Assembly: GCF_030908245.1 (NCBI RefSeq)
Contig: NZ_JAVFJJ010000015.1
Span: forward strand, 1 to 64,000
DNA from: Sinomonas sp. ASV322
Lineage (GTDB): Bacteria; Actinomycetota; Actinomycetes; Actinomycetales; Micrococcaceae
Reading direction: 5' to 3'
DNA: 64,000 nt
The notes under the pieces are model-generated. The model did not search any database. It worked only from the letters and a program-made list of their open reading frames with translations, and had not been told where the DNA came from. This document shows positions 6,633 through 24,982 of this stretch, in pieces. The translations under genes were made by a program, and so were the position numbers. How positions within the stretch are numbered: the stretch's first letter is position 1; the number at the start of each line of letters is the position of its first letter.

Positions 6633-6906
6633 AGGCGGTCTCTACCCCTCTTCAGTAGACAGGCTTATCGCATTAATTCTACCGGTTGGTTCGCGAAATT
6701 CCGGCCAGCGGCGCCCGCGGGTGCCCATGGGAAGCCCGCAACGGGCCGAATGGCGGCTCATCGGGACCCCGACCAAGGGGGAGTGTGGCTCCCGCCCCGT
6801 GAACGGCCCAGACAGCGGATTCCCGGCTTCCGCCGCATACCAGTCGACGCGCCGTTGCGCCAGTCACCTTCCCGGGCCCGGCCGACGGGAGCGGAGGGGC
6901 GAGACG

Positions 6907-7455
6907 TCAGCCGTACGTGTCGCGCGGCCCGCGGCCCCGCACGTGCCGCACGCCCTTGCGCCAGCTCGGCGCCGCGGGCCCGAGAACATGGAGCGAGCGG
7001 ACGACGTCGGGGCCCAGCTCGCGCGCGAAGCGGTCGAGGAGCGCCGTGCTCAGCAGGCGGAGCTGAGTGGCCCACGCCGTCGAATCGCACCTCACCCGCA
7101 GCGTCGTGTCCTCGAAGCTCTCCGGCGTGCAGTGCGCCGCGACCTCGGGACCCACGAGTTCGGGCCACCTCGCGATCACCGAGCCGACCGCGACCGGGGA
7201 GGACCATCCCCGTTCCGAGACCATGCGGCTCATGACGCTCCCCAGGCCCTGTGGGTCCCGGCCGCCGTAGCCCTCGGCAAAGCCGGATCCCCGCCGTCGT
7301 CCTTCACGCCTGGCCCGGGTATCGGCCGCCCCCGACGAGCCGAGCGAGCCGGACGCGCGCGTGCGGATCTCGCCGCGCGCCTCGGCCGCCCGGCGAACCC
7401 GATTGAGGGCGGACTGGGCGGCGTCGATCTCGTCCTTCGGCTCGTCCGCCATCAT
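6907..7455 (-). CDS. DciA-like helicase loader (DUF721)
   Basis: 182 residues from the ATG at 7455, which overlaps the recF stop in an ATGATGA-like junction (a second ATG at 7452 is equally possible). The N-terminal third is charged and flexible. The C-terminal DUF721 domain (about residues 60-165) contains SPVAVGSVIARWPELVGPEV and the strand LRVRCDSTAWATQLRLLS. DUF721 proteins are the DciA family, which helps load the replicative helicase in bacteria lacking DnaC; the role is established for relatives and inferred here. The position after recF within the replication cluster fits. Confidence 0.85.
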   Translation of the reverse strand: MMADEPKDEIDAAQSALNRVRRAAEARGEIRTRASGSLGSSGAADTRARREGRRRGSGFAEGYGGRDPQGLGSVMSRMVSERGWSSPVAVGSVIARWPELVGPEVAAHCTPESFEDTTLRVRCDSTAWATQLRLLSTALLDRFARELGPDVVRSLHVLGPAAPSWRKGVRHVRGRGPRDTYG

Positions 7456-8774
7456 CCACCCGCCGGGGCGGGCCCGGTTTCGTCCTCGATCCCGCCGGGC
7501 ACAACCCTGATCCGGCGGCCCGCGAGCTCGGCCGGGATGTCGCCGTCGACCGCGGCCGTGACAATGACCTGCTCCGCGTGCGCGACGATCGAGGCGAGCC
7601 GCGCGCGGCGGGCCGTATCGAGCTCGGCGAAAACGTCGTCGAGGATGAGGATGGGCTCGTCGCCGTCGACCGTCGAATCGTCGAGCATGACGTAGTACGA
7701 CCCGAGCCGGAGCGCGAGCGCGAACGACCACGTCTCGCCATGGGACGCGAAGCCCTTCGCGGGCGCCTCGCCCAGGAGAAGTTCAAGCTCGTCCCGATGC
7801 GGCCCCACGAGCGAGAGCCCGCGCTCGAGCTCGGCCGGCCGCGCGGCCGCGAGTGCCGAGAGATAGAGCTCCGCGAGCTCGTCGGCGGGGAGGGCCTCGA
7901 GGCCGCCGCCGTCGGATGAGCCCTCGGCTTGCGCGGACAGCGGCGCCGCGCCCGCATCCACGGTGAGCAGGCCGCCGGAGGCGGGCTGGGCATCGGGGCC
8001 GGATTGGGCATTCGGGTCAGACTGGCCGTCGTCGTCCGGGACGAAGCCCGTGATCGAGGAGCGATAGACGAGCCGCGCGGCCTTCGACCCGTCCGTGAGC
8101 TGCTCGTACGCCTTTGCAACGTGGGGCCGCAGCCGCTCGACGATTTCGAGTCGCGCGGCGAGGAGCTGTGCGCCGATCCGCGCGAGATGCTGGTCCCACA
8201 CATCGAGGGTCGACTCGACCGTCGCACCGTGGGCGTCGGGCGCCCGTCCTCCGCGCGAGCGGGAGGTGCGTGCCGACTTGAGGAGCGCATTGCGCTGCTT
8301 GAGGACACGGTCGTAGTCCGCCCGGGTGCCGGCATGCCGGGGAGCGAGGACCGTCAGGAGCTCGTCGAGGAAGCGACGGCGCGCCGACGGGTCGCCCTTG
8401 ACGAGGGCAAGGTCCTCGGGCGCGAAAAGGACGGTTCGGGCGATTCCGAGGATTTCCCGCGCACGCCGTGGGGCGCCGCGGTTGATCCTGGCCCGGTTCG
8501 CCTTCCCCGGATTGATCTCGAGTTCGAGCTGCGAACGCTGCACGCCGCGGACGAACCCGGCGCGAACGAAGGCTTGCGTCGAGCCGAACCGCACGAGCGG
8601 CGCGTCCGAGGAGACGCGATGCGAGGACAGCGTCGACATGAGGCCCAGGGCCTCGACGACGTTCGTCTTCCCGACGCCGTTCGGCCCGACGAGAACAGTC
8701 GGGCCGGGTTCGAACTCGAGATCGAGCTGGGGGTAGCTCCGGAAGTCCGTGAGCGAGAGCCGTTCGACGTACAC
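7452..8774 (-). CDS. recF: DNA repair and gap-recombination protein RecF
   Basis: 440 residues. SMC-like ATPase acting with RecO and RecR to load RecA at ssDNA gaps. It starts MYVERLSLTDFRSYPQL, has Walker A GPNGVGKTN near residue 33, and ends with the ABC-type signature region and Walker B (PILILDDVFAELD, near residue 385). An insertion at about 245-290, rich in Ser, Asp and Ala, makes it longer than the usual 360-400 residues. dciA overlaps its 3' end; gnd lies 23 bases upstream. Confidence 0.95.
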   Translation of the reverse strand: MYVERLSLTDFRSYPQLDLEFEPGPTVLVGPNGVGKTNVVEALGLMSTLSSHRVSSDAPLVRFGSTQAFVRAGFVRGVQRSQLELEINPGKANRARINRGAPRRAREILGIARTVLFAPEDLALVKGDPSARRRFLDELLTVLAPRHAGTRADYDRVLKQRNALLKSARTSRSRGGRAPDAHGATVESTLDVWDQHLARIGAQLLAARLEIVERLRPHVAKAYEQLTDGSKAARLVYRSSITGFVPDDDGQSDPNAQSGPDAQPASGGLLTVDAGAAPLSAQAEGSSDGGGLEALPADELAELYLSALAAARPAELERGLSLVGPHRDELELLLGEAPAKGFASHGETWSFALALRLGSYYVMLDDSTVDGDEPILILDDVFAELDTARRARLASIVAHAEQVIVTAAVDGDIPAELAGRRIRVVPGGIEDETGPAPAGG

Positions 8775-10845: not shown

Positions 10846-11301
10846 GGAAGGGTTCCCGCCTTTCAACGATTCGTGCGTCCCAGCGCGCACTGCCCACAGC
10901 TTAGCCGCAAGTTCCTCGGGTCGTTCAACGGGCTGGTGATTTGCCAGGACCGTGCGGGGTGGGGCGCAGGGCGAGCGGGTTCCTGTTGTCTAGCTGTTCA
11001 TGGAGTTTTTGGGATTCGTGGTGTTAATAACTGCTGTGGAAACTGTGGAAAAGCGCTTTCCGACCTGACGGACAGCGGGTTCGGGCTGTTCATGAGTTGT
11101 TGATCGGATGCGGACGATCGGGGGTGGTTCTGTGGATCGCAGGATTCTTGTCATTCAGCTCCTCCACAGAGCCGTGGTGAGTTTTAAGCCCATCCGGGGC
11201 ACCTGTGCACTTAACTTCCCACAGGGTTGTCCACAGGGTGCTGTTAATAAGGAATGACAAGAAGGGCGAGCGCCGGGTGCCAGGGGTTCCCGTGCCGGGG
11301 C
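10846..11301. other. dnaN-dnaA intergenic region, likely oriC
   Basis: 456 bases with no gene. DnaA-box-like 9-mers: TTGTCCACA at 11227-11235 (perfect actinobacterial box) and weaker ones TGTGGAAAC 11035-11043, TGTGGAAAA 11044-11052 and TGTGGATCG 11131-11139. AT-rich elements GTTAATAA occur at 11022-11029 and 11243-11250, each beside a box. This position and content are those of chromosomal oriC in most Actinobacteria. Fewer perfect boxes are present than expected for a main origin. Confidence 0.65.
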
Positions 11302-12714
11302 TCACGCCCCTCGCTGGGCCTGCTTGATCTTGTTCGTGAGCTCCGTGACCTGATTGAAGATCGCTCGCCGCTCGGCCATGAGTTCGCGGATCTTCCGGTC
11401 CGCGTGGATGACCGTCGTGTGGTCGCGTCCGCCGAGCACCTGGCCGATCTTGGGCAGGGACATGTCGGTGAGCTCGCGGCACAGGTACATCGCGATCTGG
11501 CGGGCTGTCACGAGAGTGCGCGTGCGCGACTTGCTGTTGAGCTCCTCGATCGAGAGCTTGAAGTAGGCGGCCGTCTCGTGGAGGATCTGGTCCGCCGTGA
11601 TCTCGAGCGACGAATCGTCCGTGATGAGGTCCTTGAGGACCATCTCGGCGAGAGCCACGTCGACCGGCTGCTTGTTGAGGCTCGCGAACGCCGTGACGCG
11701 GATGAGGGCGCCTTCGAGTTCGCGGATGTTCGAGGCGATCCGCGAGGCGATGTACTCGAGCACATCGTCCGGGGCGTAGAGGCCCTCGCTGTTGGCCTTC
11801 TTCCGAAGGATCGCGATACGGGTCTCGAGGTCCGGCGGCTGGATGTCCGTGAGGAGGCCCCACTCGAAGCGCGACTTCATGCGGTCCTCGAAGCCGTGCA
11901 GTGCCTTCGGCGGCTGGTCGGACGTGATGACGACCTGCTTGTTGCTGTTGTGCAGCGCGTTGAACGTGTGGAAGAACTCCTCCATCGTCCCCGTGCGGCC
12001 TGCGAGGAACTGGATGTCGTCGATGAGCAGGAGGTCCACGTTGCGGTACGTGGTTTTGAAGCTCGTGCCCTCGTCGTCGCGGATCGAGTTGATGAAGTCG
12101 TTCGTGAATTCCTCGGAGTTCACATAGCGGACGCGGATCCCCGTGTAGAGCCGGCGCGCGTAGTGGCCGATCGCGTGCAGGAGGTGGGTCTTGCCGAGGC
12201 CCGAGTCCCCGTAGATGAAGAGAGGGTTGTACGCCTTCGCGGGAGCCTCTGCGACGGCGACGGCGGCCGCATGGGCAAATCGATTCGAGGCGCCGATGAC
12301 GAAGGTGTCGAACGTGTACTTCGGGTTGAGGCGGCCGAACTCCTGGGACGTGCTCGGTGGCGTGGGCGCCGGCCGCAGGTCCGGCACGGGCTCGGGACGC
12401 TTGATCGGCTCAAAGATCTCTTCGCGGACGGGTACGAGCTCGGTGTCGACGTCGATCGCGCACCTGACGTCCTCAGAGAAGACCGAGCGGAGCGCGGCGT
12501 CGAGGGGTTCCTTGAGCTGGGTCTGGAGGACTTCGCGCGTGAGCTCGTTGGGGACCGCGACGAGGAGCGTCGAGCCGATGAGGCCCTGCGCCTGGGCGAG
12601 GGCTACGAATCCGCGCTGCCGCGGGCTGACCCGATCGTCCTCCTCGAGCAAGCGCACGACGCGCCGCCACGAACTGCCAACGGTGTTGGCCTCGTTCGCC
12701 TCGTCAGTTCCCAT
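11302..12714 (-). CDS. dnaA: Chromosomal replication initiator DnaA
   Basis: 470 residues from the ATG at 12714 (MGTDEANEAN), with AGAAGGG just upstream. Domain I is at about 15-95; linker domain II is short and Pro-rich (about 100-120), shorter than in Streptomyces. The AAA+ domain carries Walker A GDSGLGKTH (169-177) and Walker B LLLIDDIQF (228-236). Domain IV ends with the DnaA signature, including MSLPKIGQVLGGRDHTTV. The protein binds DnaA boxes and opens oriC. Candidate boxes lie on both sides of the gene and in a second, denser cluster at 21.4-21.8 kb. Confidence 0.98.
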   Translation of the reverse strand: MGTDEANEANTVGSSWRRVVRLLEEDDRVSPRQRGFVALAQAQGLIGSTLLVAVPNELTREVLQTQLKEPLDAALRSVFSEDVRCAIDVDTELVPVREEIFEPIKRPEPVPDLRPAPTPPSTSQEFGRLNPKYTFDTFVIGASNRFAHAAAVAVAEAPAKAYNPLFIYGDSGLGKTHLLHAIGHYARRLYTGIRVRYVNSEEFTNDFINSIRDDEGTSFKTTYRNVDLLLIDDIQFLAGRTGTMEEFFHTFNALHNSNKQVVITSDQPPKALHGFEDRMKSRFEWGLLTDIQPPDLETRIAILRKKANSEGLYAPDDVLEYIASRIASNIRELEGALIRVTAFASLNKQPVDVALAEMVLKDLITDDSSLEITADQILHETAAYFKLSIEELNSKSRTRTLVTARQIAMYLCRELTDMSLPKIGQVLGGRDHTTVIHADRKIRELMAERRAIFNQVTELTNKIKQAQRGA

Positions 12715-16540: not shown

Positions 16541-17575
16541 GTGAGCAGTGACGAGTCATCGGCACAGCGGATTCCGCCCTTCGTATCGCTGGGGCCAGCT
16601 CGCTCGTCAACCGTCGCACAGTCTCTTGCTTCTCAACCCGCTCAGGTTGATTCCACCGCTTCTCGCGGACCCGCCAACGGGTCATCGCCCGGGATCAGCA
16701 TCGATGAGTCGAGCCCGATTGGGAGCCAGCTCGCGAACGAAACGAAGCGCCGAGAGCGGCTCAGCCAGCGCCAGCTCCGCAGGCCGGACGCCACGCGGAT
16801 CTTCACCGTATCGAACCAGAAGGGCGGCGTCGGCAAAACCACGACGACGGTGAATATCGCCGCGGCCCTCGCGGCCTCGGGCCTCAACGTCCTCGTGATC
16901 GACATCGACCCGCAGGGCAATGCGTCGACCGCCCTGGGCATCGAACACCACGCCGACGTGGAGAGCATCTACGACGTGCTCATCAACGATCTTGCACTCG
17001 CCGACGTCGTCCGTCCGTGCCCAGACGTCGAGCGGCTCGAGTGTGCGCCGGCCACGATTCATCTCGCGGGGGCCGAGATCGAGCTCGTCTCACTCGTTGC
17101 CCGCGAACAGCGCCTGCGGCGCGCGATCGACAACTACGCGAAAGAACGCGTGGCCCAGGGCCTTGAGCGGTTGGACTACATTTTCATCGACTGCCCGCCG
17201 AGCCTCGGCCTCCTGACGGTCAACGCGTTCTGTGCGGCCGGCGAGGTGCTCATCCCCATCCAGTGCGAGTACTACGCGCTTGAGGGACTCAGCCAGCTCC
17301 TCAATAACATCGGGATGATTCAGAAGCACCTCAACGGCGATCTTCGAGTTTCCACGATCCTGCTGACGATGTACGACGGTCGCACGAACCTTGCGGCGCA
17401 GGTTGCGGCCGAGGTTCGTGAGCATTTCCCGAACCAGGTCCTTGAGGCTGTTGTGCCGCGCTCCGTTCGCATCTCGGAGGCTCCGAGTTACCAGCAGACG
17501 GTCATGACGTATGACCCGTCGTCGACCGGGGCACTCTCCTACATGGAGGCTGCGGCGGAAATCGCCGAGCGTTAG
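16541..17575 (+). CDS. parA: Chromosome partitioning ATPase ParA
   Basis: 344 residues, GTG start. Deviant Walker [11 protein letters not shown] at 94-103, Walker B region [12 protein letters not shown], and [14 protein letters not shown] identify ParA/Soj. An N-terminal extension of about 85 Ser/Pro-rich residues precedes the ATPase, which in Soj starts almost at residue 1. ParA-ATP binds DNA non-specifically and moves ParB-parS complexes apart. parB follows after 56 bases, and four parS-type sites lie 0.4-5.7 kb downstream of parB. TAGAGT at 16501-16506 is a possible -10 box. Confidence 0.96.
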
Positions 17576-17631: not shown

Positions 17632-18861
17632 ATGAGCGAGAAGCGCCGAGGCCTGGGCCGTGGCCTGGGAGCTCTGATTCCGAGTTCCGGCACGGTCTCG
17701 GGTGGGACTGCCGCGCCGTCGCGTCCGGTTGACCTCTTCTTCCCCGAGTCGCGCAGTTCGAGTGAAGAGCGTGCGACGGCTGAGGAGACCGCCGCCCCGC
17801 AGAAAGAGGCTGAGGCTGCGAACTCGGCTGCGCCGGCAGCGGCTGAGGGGGAGCGTTCGACGGCGGCAGGGCTTGCCTCGGAGTCCGCCGCCCAAGTCGA
17901 GGAACGCCCGACGACGAAGCGCTCGCCTTCTCCGTCAAAAGGGTCGGGATCGCGAAGCGGTTCCGAGCGGCGCAAGAGCACGTCCGAGGAAGGCCCTTCC
18001 TCGTCTGCGGGCGGATCGGGCGAAGATGAGCTCGATCTTGTCGAGGTTCCCGGCGCGCAGTTCGCCGAGCTTCGAGTCGGTGACATCCATCCGAACCGCA
18101 AGCAGCCTCGCAGTGTCTTCGATGAAGACGAGATGGCTGAACTTGTGCACTCAGTTCGCGAAATTGGCGTTCTTCAACCGATTGTCGTCCGTCGATCAAC
18201 CGAACCTGGTAGCGAAAGCTACGAGCTCGTCATGGGCGAGCGTCGCTGGCGCGCCGTTCAACAAGCCGGCCTCGAGACGATACCCGCCATCATCCGTGAC
18301 ACGAGTGATGACGACCTCTTGCGCGACGCACTCCTCGAGAACCTGCATCGCAGCCAGCTCAATCCGTTGGAAGAGGCGGCCGCGTACCAGCAGCTTCTCG
18401 AGGACTTCGGGACGACCCATGAAGAGCTTGCCGACCGTATTGGTCGCTCGCGTCCGCAGGTCTCCAACACGATTCGCCTTCTGCGCCTTCCGCCGCTTGT
18501 GCAGCGGCGCGTTGCCGCGGGTGTCCTTTCCGCCGGCCACGCCCGCGCGTTGCTTTCTCTCCCAGATGCCGGGGCCATGGAACGCGTCGCGCAGCGCATC
18601 GTTGCTGAAGGCCTCTCGGTGCGGGCCACGGAAGAGGCCGTTGCCCTGTATCAGGACCCGGGGGAGCCTCGCCGCAACAACATCCCCAAGCCGAACGCTC
18701 GGCACGAACGGCTCGACTTCCTGGCCTCGACGCTTGCCGACCGCCTCGACACGAGCGTGAAGATCACACTCGGTGCTCGCAAGGGCCGCGTGAGCATCGA
18801 GTTTGCGAGTGTTGAGGATCTGAATCGCATCATGGGTGTTTTGAACCCGGGCGCGGAGTAG
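17632..18861 (+). CDS. parB: CTP-dependent parS-binding protein ParB
   Basis: 409 residues. The N-terminal [14 protein letters not shown] motif (4-17) is the ParA-contacting segment. A long low-complexity linker (about 20-140) rich in Ser, Glu and Ala follows, then the ParB/Srx fold with the CTP motif GERRWRA at 202-208, the helix-turn-helix parS reader (about 261-283, [20 protein letters not shown]), and a C-terminal dimerisation domain. ParB loads at parS as a CTP clamp and spreads. The recognition-helix region is of the Spo0J type that reads TGTTTCACGTGAAACA, and sites of that sequence occur just downstream. Confidence 0.96.
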
Positions 18862-18888
18862 GCGGAGTATTCCCTCCGGGGTCGCGAT

Positions 18889-18924
18889 GACAGGGCCTCG
18901 TCCGTTATGGGCGGGGCCCTTGTC
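18889..18924 (+). terminator. Hairpin after parB
   Basis: GACAGGGCC (18889-18897) pairs with GGCCCTTGTC (18915-18924) with one bulge, 28 bases after the parB stop. There is no T-tract, so it may act as a weak terminator or only as an mRNA 3' end stabiliser. Confidence 0.4.
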
Positions 18925-19256
18925 ATGTGCAGAGGGCTGTCGCGGTGGTGCGGTCTCCTGGTCGTGTGGCTGGCCTGTTCGTGCGCCGGTGCCCGCGGAT
19001 TGCTTGGGACTGGCAGCTCCTCCTTGCCGCTGAACGACACACGGTGCCTCTGCCGCCCGCATCGTTGCCTGACCTGCGCCTCGTCGGGCTGGTTTCAATG
19101 CACCTAGGGAGCCGTCGTGCGCCGCTCAAGAGCTACCGCGGATAGAAGCGCGCCGAGTGGTTTGCCGTGGGGTGCACTGCAGCCGGAAATGATCGACCAC
19201 ACCGGGGTCTCGCTGTCGGCGAGGGGATCGTTGAGCAGCAGTCGCACTGGACGTGG

Positions 19257-19272
19257 TGTTTCACGTGAAACA
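19257..19272. promoter_or_regulatory. parS site 1 (perfect)
   Basis: TGTTTCACGTGAAACA, identical to the 16-bp Spo0J/ParB consensus palindrome. It lies 396 bases past the parB stop. Confidence 0.95.
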
Positions 19273-20093
19273 TGACGTATGACTGCGGTCAGCTCTCGAT
19301 GAGTTTCGTGGGGTTCGCCGCCAGCACGATGAGTGTCTTGTGTGAGCGGGGCCTCTCCACCTGGACCGGGTGTCGCGTGGTGAAGTCTCACCCATTGTGT
19401 GAAAGGTCGCCGATCCCTCCGTCCAGGGCGTCGTGGGTGCAGCCGCCAGAACGCGCCTGGGGCTGGTTCCACATGGAAGCTTGACGTGCGACCCAGCGAT
19501 TTTGGGCCCAAGTTGAAGGAGTCAGGGCCTGCGCGTACGTCGTGGTCGCGACCTGCTCTACTCGGGCGCAGTGAGGGCCACCAGAGAGATAGCCAATGAT
19601 CCGCCGGCCCGTATGTACCGACCCAATCCGGCCCAATGGTGCGCGGGTGGGTGCGGATTCCACACCGTAGCCGCGAAATTGGGGAGGGCGTCGGACTGCG
19701 GAGCCCGGGCCGTTCACTGAGGCCTGATGCTGACCGAGCAGGATCGGTTCGGCGGACGCGCGCAACGGAGCGGCGTGGGTGGTTGGGCGGGCATTGCGCT
19801 GACTCTAAGAGCGATTGATGTGGCCAGATCGGACTTGGTCTGTTGATCACGAGTGCCAGCCGGAGATCTGTGCATCAGGGCTAGGTGGATTCTGGAGCTG
19901 ATGGGCTCATCGTGCCATCGGACGCGGGCACTTGAGTCAGGAGGCTGAATCGGCAGCGACTTGCGGTGTCAAGGGCGGTTCCAGGGGAGGCTTCAGGGCG
20001 ATGGCGGGATGCTTGTCGTCTCGCTTGGGTTGCGAGCTGGCGGCGAATTGGGCGGTTCGAGCTCGGGTGTCGGCTGCGTTTGCGGCGGGATCG

Positions 20094-20560
20094 AGGGTAA
20101 GGCAACGCTGGCCGGGATCACCGTTCCGCAATGCTGGCCCGGACCGTAGAGTGGCAAGGTTCAGCCGGGATGGGGGTAGGCGACGGCCGGTCGGGGATGG
20201 TGTGCGGGAGCGTCGGGCGGGGAAGAAGTAGGGGAACGTTGGCTGGGACGGAGCACAGGGCGTTGGGTGGTGATGGGTTACGGCGACATCGGGCGGGGCC
20301 GCAGTACGGGAGCGTTGGGCTGGGACGGAGCACTGGGCGTTGGGCGGTGATGCGTTACGGCGACATCGGGCGGAGCCGGAGTACGGGAATGTTGGGTGTT
20401 GATAGGGTACGGCGACGTTGGGTGATGACGCAGTACGGGAACGATGACCGGGACGCGATATGGCAAAGCCTTCCGCGGCTGCTTTCCGGAACGCTGGCTG
20501 GAGCTGCGGTAGGGCAATGACCGGAGGGGCGTCCGGCGGGTGGATGGGTGGTCGGGGACT
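20094..20560. repeat. Degenerate ~26-bp tandem repeat array
   Basis: About 16 imperfect units of 23-28 bases, G-rich on the plus strand, sharing a core like GTACGGGAACGTTGGGC. Inside it a higher-order unit of 77 bases (20241-20317) is repeated directly (20318-20394) with about 7 mismatches, so part of the array grew by segmental duplication. No coding potential and no unique spacers, hence not a CRISPR array. Confidence 0.75.
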
Positions 20561-21254
20561 GGCCCGGTGCGGACGGAGGTGTTGGGAGATCTGGTCCGCG
20601 CTGAAGATTCTCCCTTGGCGAATCGACGGGTACCGATTCCTTGGCGGTTTCGATCGATGGATTGTGGTCGATTCCCCGCGGATTACGAAGAGACGCGTTC
20701 CGGAAAGGGTAGTAGCGAACGGTAGGCGCCGGTGGGTTTGTGCATGGCGGTAAGTGCCGACGTGTCAGCACTCGAGGATGAGGCCGGGCTCGCGGCGTCG
20801 AGTTCGGTGCCGGACCCACGGTGTGATACCGGGCTGCTGATCGATCATGGGGTAGCTGGCCATATCCAACGCTCGCACGCCGTTTTGTGCATCTGTCGCC
20901 TGACTACATCCTGTCACTGGTGTCTGGTCACGCCTTGGCTTGCTTTGGAGAGCGCCTCGCGTGGCTGCCCTAGCGGCAGTGGATGCTCGGCGGACCCGAC
21001 ATGCGTCGTCGGTTCCGGTCATCCATGGTCGCGGAACCTGACTCGGCGAGCGGCTTCTGCTGCCGGCTGTTCGTGTGGTTCCGAGTGGGATGGTGCCTGG
21101 CGTGGGCGGACCCGTAGCGAGTCCTCGCCGCCAGCAGGCGGTCCCATCGCGAGCTGGTTCGCGCGTGGGCGCGGGCATGGAGTTTGAAGAGCCTCCGTAT
21201 CGGCTGGTGCGGAGGTGTACACCGACGTTTCCCATCGCAGAGCGGAGCTGTCCA

Positions 21255-21270
21255 TGTTTCACGTGAAACA
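21255..21270. promoter_or_regulatory. parS site 2 (perfect)
   Basis: TGTTTCACGTGAAACA, a perfect match. Symmetry extends to 22 bases (CCA...TGG, 21252-21273). Confidence 0.95.
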
Positions 21271-21377
21271 TGGATGGTCGCCGGATTCAGGGAATTCAAT
21301 CACGACGACCAATCCTTCTGCGCGCGCATCTGGGTGGTCGTGCATCGCTCGGGTGCCACTAGACACCCGAACCGTCG

Positions 21378-21789
21378 TGTGGATTTCACTGTGGATAACC
21401 TCATGCACCCGATTTTCGGATAGTGACAGGGACTGTGGATAACCGATGCGAAGGTGCTCAAGGCTGGATGGTTTGACGCGTCCGATGAATAGTGAGTTCC
21501 GTGTGATCAGAGCCCCGCGTGCAATTCGACAGGAGGCACGACGGTCCAGGGGCGACGCCGAGGTTGGGTTGCGGCGCTATCTAGACCTTGGAAATGCGCG
21601 TTTCCCGAAGGTTGAGGGGTGCTGTGCGTCGCCGCGCGCGGATTCTCCCATCCGTGACGTGGACTCGGCGGCCTGCGGCCGGGGACGTTAGCGCAGACGT
21701 CCTGATTGGGCAGCGCATTCCGGGCCCCCACTATCCACATGACGCGTTGCCCATCTGTGGATAACTGCTGTGGATACGCTTGTGGACAA
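21378..21789. promoter_or_regulatory. DnaA-box cluster
   Basis: Seven DnaA-box-like 9-mers in 412 bases, in two groups. Group 1: TGTGGATTT 21378-21386 (near match), TGTGGATAA 21390-21398 and TGTGGATAA 21434-21442 (both perfect, the complement of TTATCCACA). Group 2: CTATCCACA 21731-21739 (one mismatch, opposite orientation), TGTGGATAA 21756-21764 (perfect), TGTGGATAC 21769-21777 (one mismatch), TGTGGACAA 21781-21789 (perfect complement of TTGTCCACA). The density of perfect boxes is higher than in either region flanking dnaA. No clear AT-rich unwinding element is adjacent. Confidence 0.8.
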
Positions 21790-22911
21790 CTGTCAAAACT
21801 CCGAGTGACGACAAGGCACTTCGAGTACGGTTCTCACGGTACCTAAGAGCGACTGGTCCACCCGGGGGGCTTGGTCATCGTTCGGGTGCTGCGCCGAGGC
21901 GCGTGGGTTGGGCCGGGCAGATGTGCGCCTTCGCTGGTCCAAGGTACTGCACGGTTCGTTTGGCCGTCGACCAGTCCGTGCTCCGGACGACAGGTCACGC
22001 GACTCGCGTTGGCTCATTGCGCGGCCCCGGACGAGCCCGGAGTCCGGCGTGAAGGGAGGTGAACCGGCGTAGCGCTTCGGCCATTGCCTGTGGGCGTAGC
22101 TCCCAGCTGCTGTGGCGTCCACTTGGGGCAAAGCGCCGACATCTCGATGGGCACGTGCCTCCTGGCTACCCGGCGCGGCGGATCGCCCGACTCGGCCCGG
22201 GCAGGTGGGTCTTCAGAGGTAAGTAGGCGTGACACTGGCCTCCGTCCGCGGGTGCCCGGAGAGCGAGTGGATTTTGGCCACGGCGCCCACCATCGCACCG
22301 TGGACCGCGTCCTGTGTTCAGCGTGCCATCGCTGGACTCGCCGTTGTGTCCGTTGAGGGTCGACCGGGGCCATGTGGTCGGTGCTGCGAGGGATACCGCG
22401 TTCACCTGCCATGCCTACGGGCCGTCTGGGGCTCAACTCATTCCACGGCGCAGCGTCCTGGTGCGGGACGATGCTCAGTTCGTAGGGTGCCCGCGGTGCG
22501 AGGTGACGCCCCGCCGCTCGTCTGACCGCAGATGAGCCGCGCTGCCGGAGAGCCGCCGATAGTGGCTCTGCTTCCTCACGCGATTCTCTGCGTTACGAGT
22601 AGTTCGGCGGTTCGGTGTGCCGAGTTGGTGGGGGATTCCCCGGGATGACTCTGCTGCCAATCAGTCAGGATGAGTCGGACGTCTAAGCGTCGTCCGGCAC
22701 AGCTGTTCAATCAGATCCCCATGCCTCTTGGGTTCTCTTGCCGTGCCTACCGGTGTGGGGCGTCACGCGTCCGTTCCATCGGAGCGAACTCGCGCCGCCG
22801 CTTCTGACCGAACCTGGATCAATACGCTGTCCATTCGGAATTAAGTGGCGGGAGGTCCGACAGTTCCTATGGTCTTCGGGCCCTATCGATCAGCTGGTTC
22901 GGGTCAGGCTA

Positions 22912-22927
22912 GGTTTCACGTGAAACA
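22912..22927. promoter_or_regulatory. parS site 3 (one mismatch)
   Basis: GGTTTCACGTGAAACA. The inner 14 bases are a perfect palindrome; only the outermost base differs from consensus. Confidence 0.9.
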
Positions 22928-23825
22928 TCGTTGGGCCGGTCCCACGGGATGGCTTCGTCCGCTAGGGCGCTGTCGGTTGGTGGGTGGGTCACGTTCGACG
23001 ATCGTTGGGCCGCCGGCGGGACGAAGTGTCGGTGCTCGACCGAATCATTAGCGTAGACGCGGTGGGTCATTGGGCGCGTCTGGCATTCTGCTGGCAACCA
23101 CAGTTTGACCGCGAGGCAGTGAGAATCACCCAGCCCAGGAACGGAACCAGGGTCAGATAAGGGCCTGAGCGGCTCCGCGGCTCCCAGCGACTCGCCCATG
23201 TCCATAGGTGTCCTCACATGAGGCATTCTGTGCGCTGCGGTACCGGGTAGTTGGAGTGCCAGCCATTTTGATCGTCCCAGACTCATGGATCCAACGTGTA
23301 TCAGCTCGGGCCGGGCGCTGGCCCTGCATTCTGCAGATGACCGTTGGTTGTGTCGACGAGCTCGCTGCGCTGCCCCCGTGTGATCGAAGGGCTGCCGGGG
23401 CCTGCGGACTGGGGTTCGGGCGGCGACGCGGACGGGAATGAACCACGGCCTTCGCGACCCTGGCTCGAAAGGCCCGCCCCCGCCATGTGAGTCGTTAGCT
23501 GCGGGGAGCATTTGCACAGATGTCGACGGAAGGGGCAGCTTCGACGGTGGCGGTTTCGACAATGAGCGTCAAAGTTGCCCGATGGCCCCCGGCGGGCAAC
23601 GGAGGTGGTCCGAGCTATTCCGCGTGATGGAGGGTAGCGAGGAGCCGGACCTTGCGACCGGCGGAAGTTCCGCTGGGGGAAGAGCTGAGTCGTGCCCACC
23701 AGCGGTTAGCGAGCCGTCGGGACCAGGGCGGCACGGCGCGCGGCTGGCACCTGGATGCGCACGCCGCGGGCTAATGACGTCTAGCTTCGCCAAAAAGGTA
23801 GACCTCTGCAGATCACTTCTCGAAA

Positions 23826-24205
23826 GCTGAGCGATGGGGTAAATGCTGGTCGACGTGCCGCACACCGGGCGGCGTGGCGGAAGCTGGTCGATGTGCCGGG
23901 TCCTGAGTGGCGTGGCGGATGCCGATCGGAGTGGCGGACGCTGAGCGATAGGGCGGACGCCGGCCAATGCGTCCGACCCCTGAGTAGCGAGGCGGAAGCC
24001 GGCTGATGTACCGCGCGCCGAGTGGTGTGGCGGAGGCTGGCTGATGTGCCGGGTCCTGAGTGGCGTGGCGGATGCCGATCGGAGTGGCGGACGCCGAGCG
24101 ATGTGCTGCGCGATCAGCGTGACGGACGCTGAGCAATTGGGCAGACGTCGGCCAATGTGTCCGACCCCGAATAGCGAGACGGACGCCGATCGGCGTGGCG
24201 GACGT
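23826..24205. repeat. Degenerate ~19-bp tandem repeat array
   Basis: About 20 units of 15-22 bases with a core like GCCGATCGGAGTGGCGGAC. A 52-base segment is present twice without a mismatch (23890-23941 and 24043-24094), so the array has expanded by duplication. Translation in any frame gives only repetitive Arg/Pro/Ser peptides. The iteron-like period is near two helical turns. Confidence 0.75.
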
Positions 24206-24582
24206 CGGTCCACACAGCGCCGGGTTCCCCGCCTCCCATATCGGCGACGGTGGCGAAGGATGTGGATTCAGAAGTAGCGACGCCTCGTCGTCCATTGGAC
24301 GCGTCTCTCAGTGCCTCTGGGGGTGCTGGCGTGATCATCGTTGGCCCGACCATCGGTGACTCCTCGCTGAGGGGCGCGTGACGGCTTTTCAGGCGCATTG
24401 TGAGGATCATGATCTCGGCGGAGCAGTCCTCATCTTGGCAAAGCGTTCTGGACACACCAGCTGCGATGACGTTCTCCCGCGTCGTTGTGCACTCAGTCAC
24501 CTCATGGCAAGCCATGGAAACAGAGGGATCCAATTGATCCCGAGCTTCGGGTCGCGCTTCGCACGAGCACGAGCCGCCTCAT

Positions 24583-24598
24583 CGTTTCACGTGAAACA
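24583..24598. promoter_or_regulatory. parS site 4 (one mismatch)
   Basis: CGTTTCACGTGAAACA; only the first base differs from consensus. It begins 2 bases beyond the trxA terminator stem, so its sequence also supplies the T-rich tail of that terminator on the minus strand. Confidence 0.9.
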
Positions 24599-24600
24599 AA

Positions 24601-24628
24601 GGGGGCGCAGCCACCAGGCTGCGCCCCC
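24601..24628 (-). terminator. Terminator of trxA
   Basis: GGGGGCGCAG (24601-24610) pairs perfectly with CTGCGCCCCC (24619-24628), with an 8-base loop. On the minus strand the stem is followed by TTTGTTT, which belongs partly to parS site 4. Confidence 0.8.
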
Positions 24629-24652
24629 TCAGATTCCGTCGAAACGGATGAG

Positions 24653-24982
24653 CTACTTGGAAAGGATCTCCGACCATTCCTTCTCGAAGTACTGCTTGGG
24701 ACGGGCCCCGATCACGGTTCCGGTCACCTTGCCCCCCTCGAAGAGGTAGACGGCGGGAATCGATGTGATTCCGTACTCAGCGGCAATGTTCGGGTTGTCG
24801 TCGACATTCACCTTCACAACGTCGACCTGATCCGAGTATTCGACCGAGATGTCGTCGAGGATTGGACCCACCTTGCGGCACGGCCCGCACCATTCAGCCC
24901 AGAAGTCGACGATAACGGGCTTCTCCGAAAGAAGAACCTCATCGGTGAACTGGGCGTCGGTGACGTCTCTGGCGTTGCTCAT
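24653..24982 (-). CDS. trxA: Thioredoxin
   Basis: 109 residues. Small dithiol oxidoreductase of the cytoplasm, reduced by TrxB. The active site WAEWCGPCRK is at about 28-37; the cis-Pro loop is ITSIPAVYLF. ATG start at 24982 with GGAAGG upstream. It follows trxB after 27 bases, so the pair is an operon ending in the terminator at 24601-24628. Confidence 0.96.
   Translation of the reverse strand: MSNARDVTDAQFTDEVLLSEKPVIVDFWAEWCGPCRKVGPILDDISVEYSDQVDVVKVNVDDNPNIAAEYGITSIPAVYLFEGGKVTGTVIGARPKQYFEKEWSEILSK

Follow-up and report, generated by a model that had tools for sequence, protein, structure and literature searches.

The DNA analyzed here is a 64-kb window (the whole 64,000-nt stretch from Sinomonas sp. 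ASV322), in which an interval without genes separates parB from trxA. On its parS content, this interval is almost certainly the centromere of the chromosome, with ParB loading predicted at its sites, and its middle holds a two-part module of DnaA boxes. Box quality and conservation make the predicted binding of DnaA to this module likely. With moderate confidence, we interpret the locus as a centromere island free of genes, into which an oriC-proximal DnaA-binding module is set; this module would probably restrain initiation of replication, and the main rival is a coupling to segregation similar to that of Caulobacter. Chromosome separation and replication timing may be linked at this island. 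Its components are each known, and their fixed combination is, as far as seen, new.

parS sites and DnaA boxes in the parB–trxA interval

All four near-perfect parS sites of the 4.34-Mb draft genome lie inside the parB–trxA interval (Table 1); the rest of the draft contains no parS with two or fewer mismatches, and the single further place recovered at up to three mismatches has three. The locus thus has the makeup of a chromosomal ParABS centromere: several near-perfect parS sites near oriC and parAB, and few elsewhere. An earlier sequence-only reading of the window had described four parS-type palindromes, which resolve into two perfect sites and two with one mismatch, and had given the order of elements along the island correctly. 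parS 14-mer matches occur in 15 of 15 genomes of the genus. In the relatives G001 to G010, each perfect 14-mer parS falls within the parA–trxA stretch, with a one-mismatch site elsewhere in G006; in four of these ten, an extra perfect parS lies about 1 kb upstream of parB, in the parA region by position. Across the clade described below, parS density is about one per 0.7–0.9 kb, and the window's own sites are spaced at 1.7–2 kb. Spacing is more even than its null (coefficient of variation 0.50 vs 0.79 in 36 islands; 0.56 vs 0.79 in 16 hand-picked subclade representatives), and in nine islands scored as outgroups, one of which (L003) belongs to the clade, the regularity was not significant (P 0.13). 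Regular parS spacing is accordingly a tendency only.

Six DnaA boxes fall within 400 bp of the window's island: exact TTRTCCACA boxes at 21390, 21434, 21756, and 21781, and one-mismatch boxes at 21731 and 21769. Across the whole window, 6.7 sites with at most one mismatch would be expected and 18 are present, a count reached in none of 100 shuffles. Because the genome holds only 39 exact boxes in total, four of them in 400 bp constitute a strong cluster, and the dense DnaA-box cluster of the sequence-only reading is borne out. The density of TGTGGA is 11.9 per kb in the cluster vs 0.43 outside, of which only the outside value is unbiased, since the cluster was picked by its boxes. With oriC-proximal clusters of the Streptomyces/Bacillus type the island shares dense, conserved boxes near but outside oriC.

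The boxes form two subclusters, A and B, with members mostly on the same strand and often at steps of 12–13 bp, in Sinomonas also of 44–45 bp. The gap between A and B is 330 bp (standard deviation, SD, 6) in the six nearest species, where the distance from B to the next parS is, in contrast, 772 bp (SD 289). It is 361 bp (SD 32) in ten other Sinomonas, 319 bp (SD 35) in 17 Arthrobacter-type islands, and 261 bp (SD 39) in three Paenarthrobacter-type islands, and usually lies at about 260–390 bp across the clade. The position of parS relative to the boxes differs among these groups: among Arthrobacter-type islands, 16 of 17 have one parS in the A–B gap, 103 bp (SD 11) past A, and the gap is free of parS in 16 of 16 Sinomonas and three of three Paenarthrobacter-type islands. 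Box position relative to parS is near-fixed in 16 of 17 Arthrobacter-type and all three Paenarthrobacter-type islands but not across Sinomonas, where the nearest parS is found before or after the boxes at up to 698 bp.

Outside these sites, little of the island sequence is kept. Alignments of three groups of related islands, 15 islands in total, gave mean pairwise identities of 0.42–0.46, which is near random and near unalignable; a fourth group consisted of just two near-identical genomes and gave no information. Nine of the ten conserved segments above threshold were parS (six) or DnaA boxes (three), and the tenth, which adjoins trxA in one group, matches the end hairpin. Invariant columns made up 0.53, 0.71, and 0.55 of motif positions in the three groups vs 0.02, 0.09, and 0.04 elsewhere. 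Querying all other islands with that of the window (blastn, E up to 1e-3) returned seven matches, four at subcluster B and three at parS. When 6-mers from 36 islands were ranked by local clustering, places 1–5 of the top 12 were fragments of CTGTGGATAA and places 6–12 fragments of parS.

Distribution among relatives and contents of the island

The comparison drew on 95 loci: the 80 best ParB matches among named genomes, 14 genomes of the genus, and the window. Near relatives are over-represented in this sample, and its rows are not independent; the genus is represented by 15 genomes including the window's own, its label being taken from the tree position of L001. The top match to the window's ParB in the named genome collection was Sinomonas cellulolyticus (72%), with others at similar identity, and a DnaA tree placed the window and S. 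cellulolyticus in a 13-row clade with support of 100/100. Both parB and trxA were seen in 86 of the 95 loci; among the nine without trxA in reach, six were inspected downstream of parB and three (L035, L072, L073) were left out.

The DnaA module together with parS was present in 37 of the 86 measured intervals, a figure that includes L003, where an insertion separates A from B; no perfect DnaA box occurred in the remaining 49. These 37 are all the measured intervals of one clade, comprising Sinomonas and many Arthrobacter-type species, and range in length from 3.1 to 9.2 kb. On the DnaA tree, 34 module rows fall within a single 36-row clade (support 100/99), and the remaining two rows, L016 and L028, whose contigs end before trxA, have boxes at the right place, reduced in L028. 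Three module holders of the genus (L107, L110, L112) lacked DnaA in the sequence retrieved and are absent from the tree. Of the non-module intervals, the tree places 41 outside the clade, and eight lacked DnaA (L039, L041, L045, L049, L056, L066, L070, L071). By record name, the clade includes Sinomonas, Pseudarthrobacter, two Paenarthrobacter, and many Arthrobacter; a third Paenarthrobacter-named record (L031) lies outside it and is without the module.

Beyond the clade, the interval can be nearly absent, at 72 bp in Psychromicrobium (the nearest outside row) and 132–135 bp in Micrococcus and two Rothia, or long and furnished with parS without the module, as in Arthrobacter koreensis and A. 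gandavensis. Many rows, of the clade and beyond it, have a parS at most about 100 bp from parB, which suggests that an old parS was in place before the island grew behind it. The pattern of presence suggests that the DnaA module was gained once, seemingly later than this growth. The sequence-only reading had staked its interpretation on close relatives with intact parAB not lacking the interval, a challenge that the locus withstood in the synteny comparison.

No gene-like codon usage was detected in any of the 22 open reading frames (ORFs) of at least 80 aa in the window's island; the eight known genes all scored positive, both in training and left out (0.10 to 0.35). Searches of the island ORFs against 85 other parB–trxA intervals (tblastn, E up to 0.01) returned no match, Pfam none at cut-off for the 10 of the 22 ORFs searched, Rfam no family at gathering score within the interval, and a tRNA scan of the interval no tRNA. 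Pfam did confirm the identity of parA, parB, trxA, trxB, dnaA, and dnaN. On codon usage with known genes left out, Pfam, and tblastn, hidden genes in this island are rejected, as the sequence-only reading had supposed for its 5.8 kb; a mobile-element origin is also rejected, the comparison with plasmids and phages having given no match. Among the 37 islands of the clade, a codon-usage scan placed 10 of 1,255 ORFs of at least 60 aa above zero: three each in L003, L019, and L112, and one in L111. Pfam, applied to three of these ten, identified an integrase-core transposase in L003 and no match for the other two; the first 70 residues alone of the transposase ORF gave none. The seven ORFs outside this Pfam scan include a gene-like ORF of 551 aa in L112. 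The islands of L003 and L112, and perhaps L019, are not gene-free.

Strong hairpins follow both parB and trxA, exceeding the internal 5% tail at the parB end in 32 of 36 islands and at the trxA end in 36 of 36. A scan for promoter and terminator consensus yielded no signal beyond shuffles and missed the end hairpins, probably through its limits on T-run and loop. In some islands, L108 among them, a parS palindrome falls within the hairpin after parB, so not every one of the 32 need be a terminator. Still, these hairpins would probably stop transcription of the two convergent genes, and the island is therefore probably little transcribed.

The sequence-only reading had proposed a composite locus that included two tandem repeat arrays. 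Its pairing of parS with DnaA boxes in DNA that is here gene-free persists in relatives; the arrays are real, but they are not shared with the 36 other islands scanned and are rejected as functional parts. Of those islands, 25 have no array of score at least 80 and 11 have arrays at other places, including arrays of period 19 (L023) and 26 (L019) that were not compared unit by unit with those of the window; blastn of the window's island with the low-complexity filter on gave no match at its arrays. The 26-bp array falls within the stretch of strongest plus-strand G excess (GC skew 0.28).

Table 1. Features of the parB–trxA island, its surroundings, and related loci (window positions unless a locus or genome is given)
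Feature	Position	Strand	Remarks
Gene-free parB–trxA interval (putative centromere island)	18862..24652	.	5,791 bp; no coding signal in 22/22 ORFs
parS1	19257..19272	.	perfect
parS2	21255..21270	.	perfect; sole segment over threshold aligning the window with four near relatives
parS3	22912..22927	.	one mismatch in 16-mer (first base), core 14-mer perfect
parS4	24583..24598	.	one mismatch in 16-mer (first base), core 14-mer perfect
DnaA-box subcluster A	21378..21442	-	TGTGGA at 21378, 21390, 21434; last two are exact boxes; steps 12 and 44 bp
DnaA-box subcluster B	21731..21789	-	21756, 21769, 21781 on minus, steps 13 and 12 bp; plus-strand box at 21731
dnaN–dnaA gap, likely true oriC	10891..11301	.	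boxes; AT-richer, well conserved sequence
Strong hairpin after parB, terminator-like	18883..18927	+	-31.3 kcal/mol over 45 nt
Strong hairpin after trxA, terminator-like	24593..24637	-	-35.3 kcal/mol over 45 nt
26-bp tandem array	20192..20440	.	private to this genome, not part of conserved design
38-bp (2x19) tandem array	23871..24077	.	private to this genome, not part of conserved design
parA	16541..17575	+	Pfam AAA_31
parB	17632..18861	+	Pfam ParB_N, HTH_ParB, ParB_C
trxA	24653..24982	-	Pfam Thioredoxin; convergent with parB
Extra perfect parS upstream of parB	G006:C1:3695931, G007:C2:89635, G008:C134:69685, G009:C3:61882		
DnaA-box element of about 150 bp, three copies	L114 (G000:C12:420000-436000) 6787-6932, 8415-8539, 12334-12458		

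Possible roles of the module

A second or displaced replication origin in the island would account for its dense boxes; of the 13 Sinomonas loci that show both the island and the dnaN–dnaA gap, 11 have more exact boxes in the island. The flanking sequence argues otherwise. The AT-richest 50 bp near the island boxes reaches 0.48–0.66 vs 0.60–0.74 in the gap, lower in 33 of 33 loci, so that no AT-rich unwinding stretch of the kind found in a bacterial oriC accompanies the boxes, and the gap is conserved (identity 0.73–0.79) where the island is not. GC skew is positive on both flanks of the boxes, in 33 of 36 cases on the left and in 34 of 36 on the right, with no switch at the module, as expected if this DNA is replicated outward from the dnaA side. 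In the nearly closed G014, four of five 19–20 kb pieces on the dnaN side of dnaA have negative skew, and the five pieces on the other side, including the one holding dnaA and the island, have zero or positive skew, in weak agreement with an origin at dnaN–dnaA. Since skew is also positive on the dnaN side next to dnaA in G014 (over 2.3 kb) and the window, it gives no sharp switch there and does not pin the origin, a point that a displaced origin could claim; skew at 4-fold sites of neighboring genes was uninformative. Taken together, skew, AT content, and conservation of the gap disfavor a second oriC, which we consider very improbable.

Nor does neutral decay, with parS alone mattering and the boxes as relics, appear credible. 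Sequence change between the sites is unconstrained, tandem arrays appear and disappear, and L003, L112, and perhaps L019 carry gene-like insertions, all of which would suit decayed DNA; yet the boxes survive saturation in all 37 clade intervals, where relics would be lost, and this explanation is highly doubtful. The bipartite boxes and the tight A–B spacing of the nearest species also invite comparison with datA- or DARS-type elements, in which A and B, folded into a nucleoprotein complex by a bending protein, would change the nucleotide state of DnaA. In Escherichia coli, datA and DARS need partner proteins such as IHF. In the island, neither the footprint nor the top 12 6-mers yielded a third conserved motif for such a partner, a result that a degenerate site could escape, and we regard this role as improbable.

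That DnaA bound at the island licenses or times segregation rather than initiation, acting at the centromere as DnaA-ATP rises, in the manner reported for Caulobacter, or altering ParB loading or ParA action, is a tentative possibility. The geography is that of Caulobacter, with DnaA at parS near the origin in the account of PMC6399470, and the module lies inside the parS array in 37 of 37 intervals; the parS held at a near-constant distance after A in Arthrobacter-type islands points the same way. Its absence from between A and B in Sinomonas and Paenarthrobacter-type islands, and the wide range of the nearest parS in Sinomonas, point the other. A special closeness of parS to the boxes is also rejected, since shifted controls gave distances no longer than those observed (median 114 bp vs 94 in controls, P 0.80). 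A more elaborate version, rather unlikely in our estimate, would make the island a clade-fixed replication–segregation hub: a transcription-insulated centromere at which DnaA on the two-part module would physically change how ParB loads or ParA is released, with the result that one and the same DnaA pulse would both fire oriC and set segregation of the new origin.

We prefer restraint of initiation, the most economical reading given that oriC-proximal DnaA-box clusters have this effect in Streptomyces and Bacillus. The presence of the module in all 37 clade intervals, its conservation amid otherwise replaced DNA, and the surplus of exact boxes over the dnaN–dnaA gap in most Sinomonas loci speak for it. 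ParB would load at parS in gene-free DNA, the mostly same-strand boxes of the two subclusters would bind DnaA in the middle of the island, and the module, lying about 10 kb from oriC and so copied soon after initiation, would most likely draw DnaA from oriC, or restrain it, just after firing. Several observations weigh against this reading. Titration, activation, and a segregation role cannot be told apart from a DnaA-box cluster alone, and the boxes, as noted above, lie no closer to parS than in shifted controls. In the window's own alignment group only parS2 passed the conservation threshold, and the DnaA boxes did not. The A–B gap shortens to 216 bp in L004 and 205 bp in L019 and widens to 1.85 kb in L003, with a transposase gene in between, so the spacing is not indispensable. 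In 21 Arthrobacter-type loci, exact boxes were more numerous in the island than in the dnaN–dnaA gap in seven, equal in 11, and fewer in three; island boxes there are not clearly better than oriC boxes. Finally, given that other DnaA-box groups exist, the island is not the sole candidate for initiation control.

Beside these comparisons stand several separate observations. L003 is a natural spacing mutant, with an integrase-core transposase gene and a second gene-like ORF between A and B (L003:13434-14884). Three copies of a DnaA-box element of about 150 bp share a AACTACAnnnCTGTAAGTT-like motif, also found in L115, L116, and L117. Such elements lie on the dnaN side of dnaA in G014, about 15 kb off, with similar copies in G012 and G006, and the AACTACAnnnCTGTAAGTT-like core motif (up to one mismatch) occurs in 19 of 80 family genomes sampled; they are possibly a DARS- or datA-like family of their own. 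The dnaB gene (L113:1767-4613; G000:C7 about 65767-68613) includes a LAGLIDADG-domain intein, and two exact DnaA boxes spaced 45 bp apart sit at the upstream end of the ORF.

Precedents and significance

The sequence-only reading did not recognize a centromere of this composition as previously described; that nothing like it is known would be an overstatement. In Caulobacter crescentus, the parS region is bound by DnaA (Mera et al., 2014, via the review PMC6399470), placing the replication initiator at a centromere in the neighborhood of the origin; the parS region of all 37 measured clade intervals likewise has DnaA boxes. Caulobacter differs in being an alphaproteobacterium, and the locus reported here spans 5.8 kb without genes and combines several parS with a bipartite box module. 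Vibrio cholerae chromosome II, where RctB binds at rctA/parS2, similarly joins a centromere and initiator-titrating sites in one locus beside the origin, although the initiator is RctB and the chromosome secondary (PMC6399470). DnaA-box clusters near oriC repress untimely initiation in Streptomyces coelicolor (Smulczyk-Krawczyszyn et al., 2006) and Bacillus subtilis (Okumura et al., 2012), both cited in PMC4585315, whose passages on them, unlike the case here, mention no placement inside a parS array; the same source describes datA and DARS of E. coli, which resemble the island as non-coding DnaA-box loci away from oriC. Myxococcus xanthus, with 22 parS in 3 kb about 4 kb upstream of parA, offers a comparably dense parS cluster near parAB (PMC3899335), for which the passage concerned does not mention DnaA boxes, no dedicated search for them having been made. 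DnaA has been reported to make contact with ParA or ParB in B. subtilis, V. cholerae, and Deinococcus (PMC7022226, PMC7174722). A literature search, with subscription papers mostly outside its reach, found no description of a DnaA-box module inside a Micrococcaceae parS island.

The footprint of these islands, in which sites are kept and nearly all else is replaced, gives an unusually clean view of what a bacterial centromere needs, which may be sites and empty space rather than sequence. In so compact and gene-free a natural locus of soil bacteria, initiator boxes and centromere sites could be removed separately without touching genes, and the old question of how origin firing is coupled to origin segregation thereby becomes directly testable outside Caulobacter and Vibrio.

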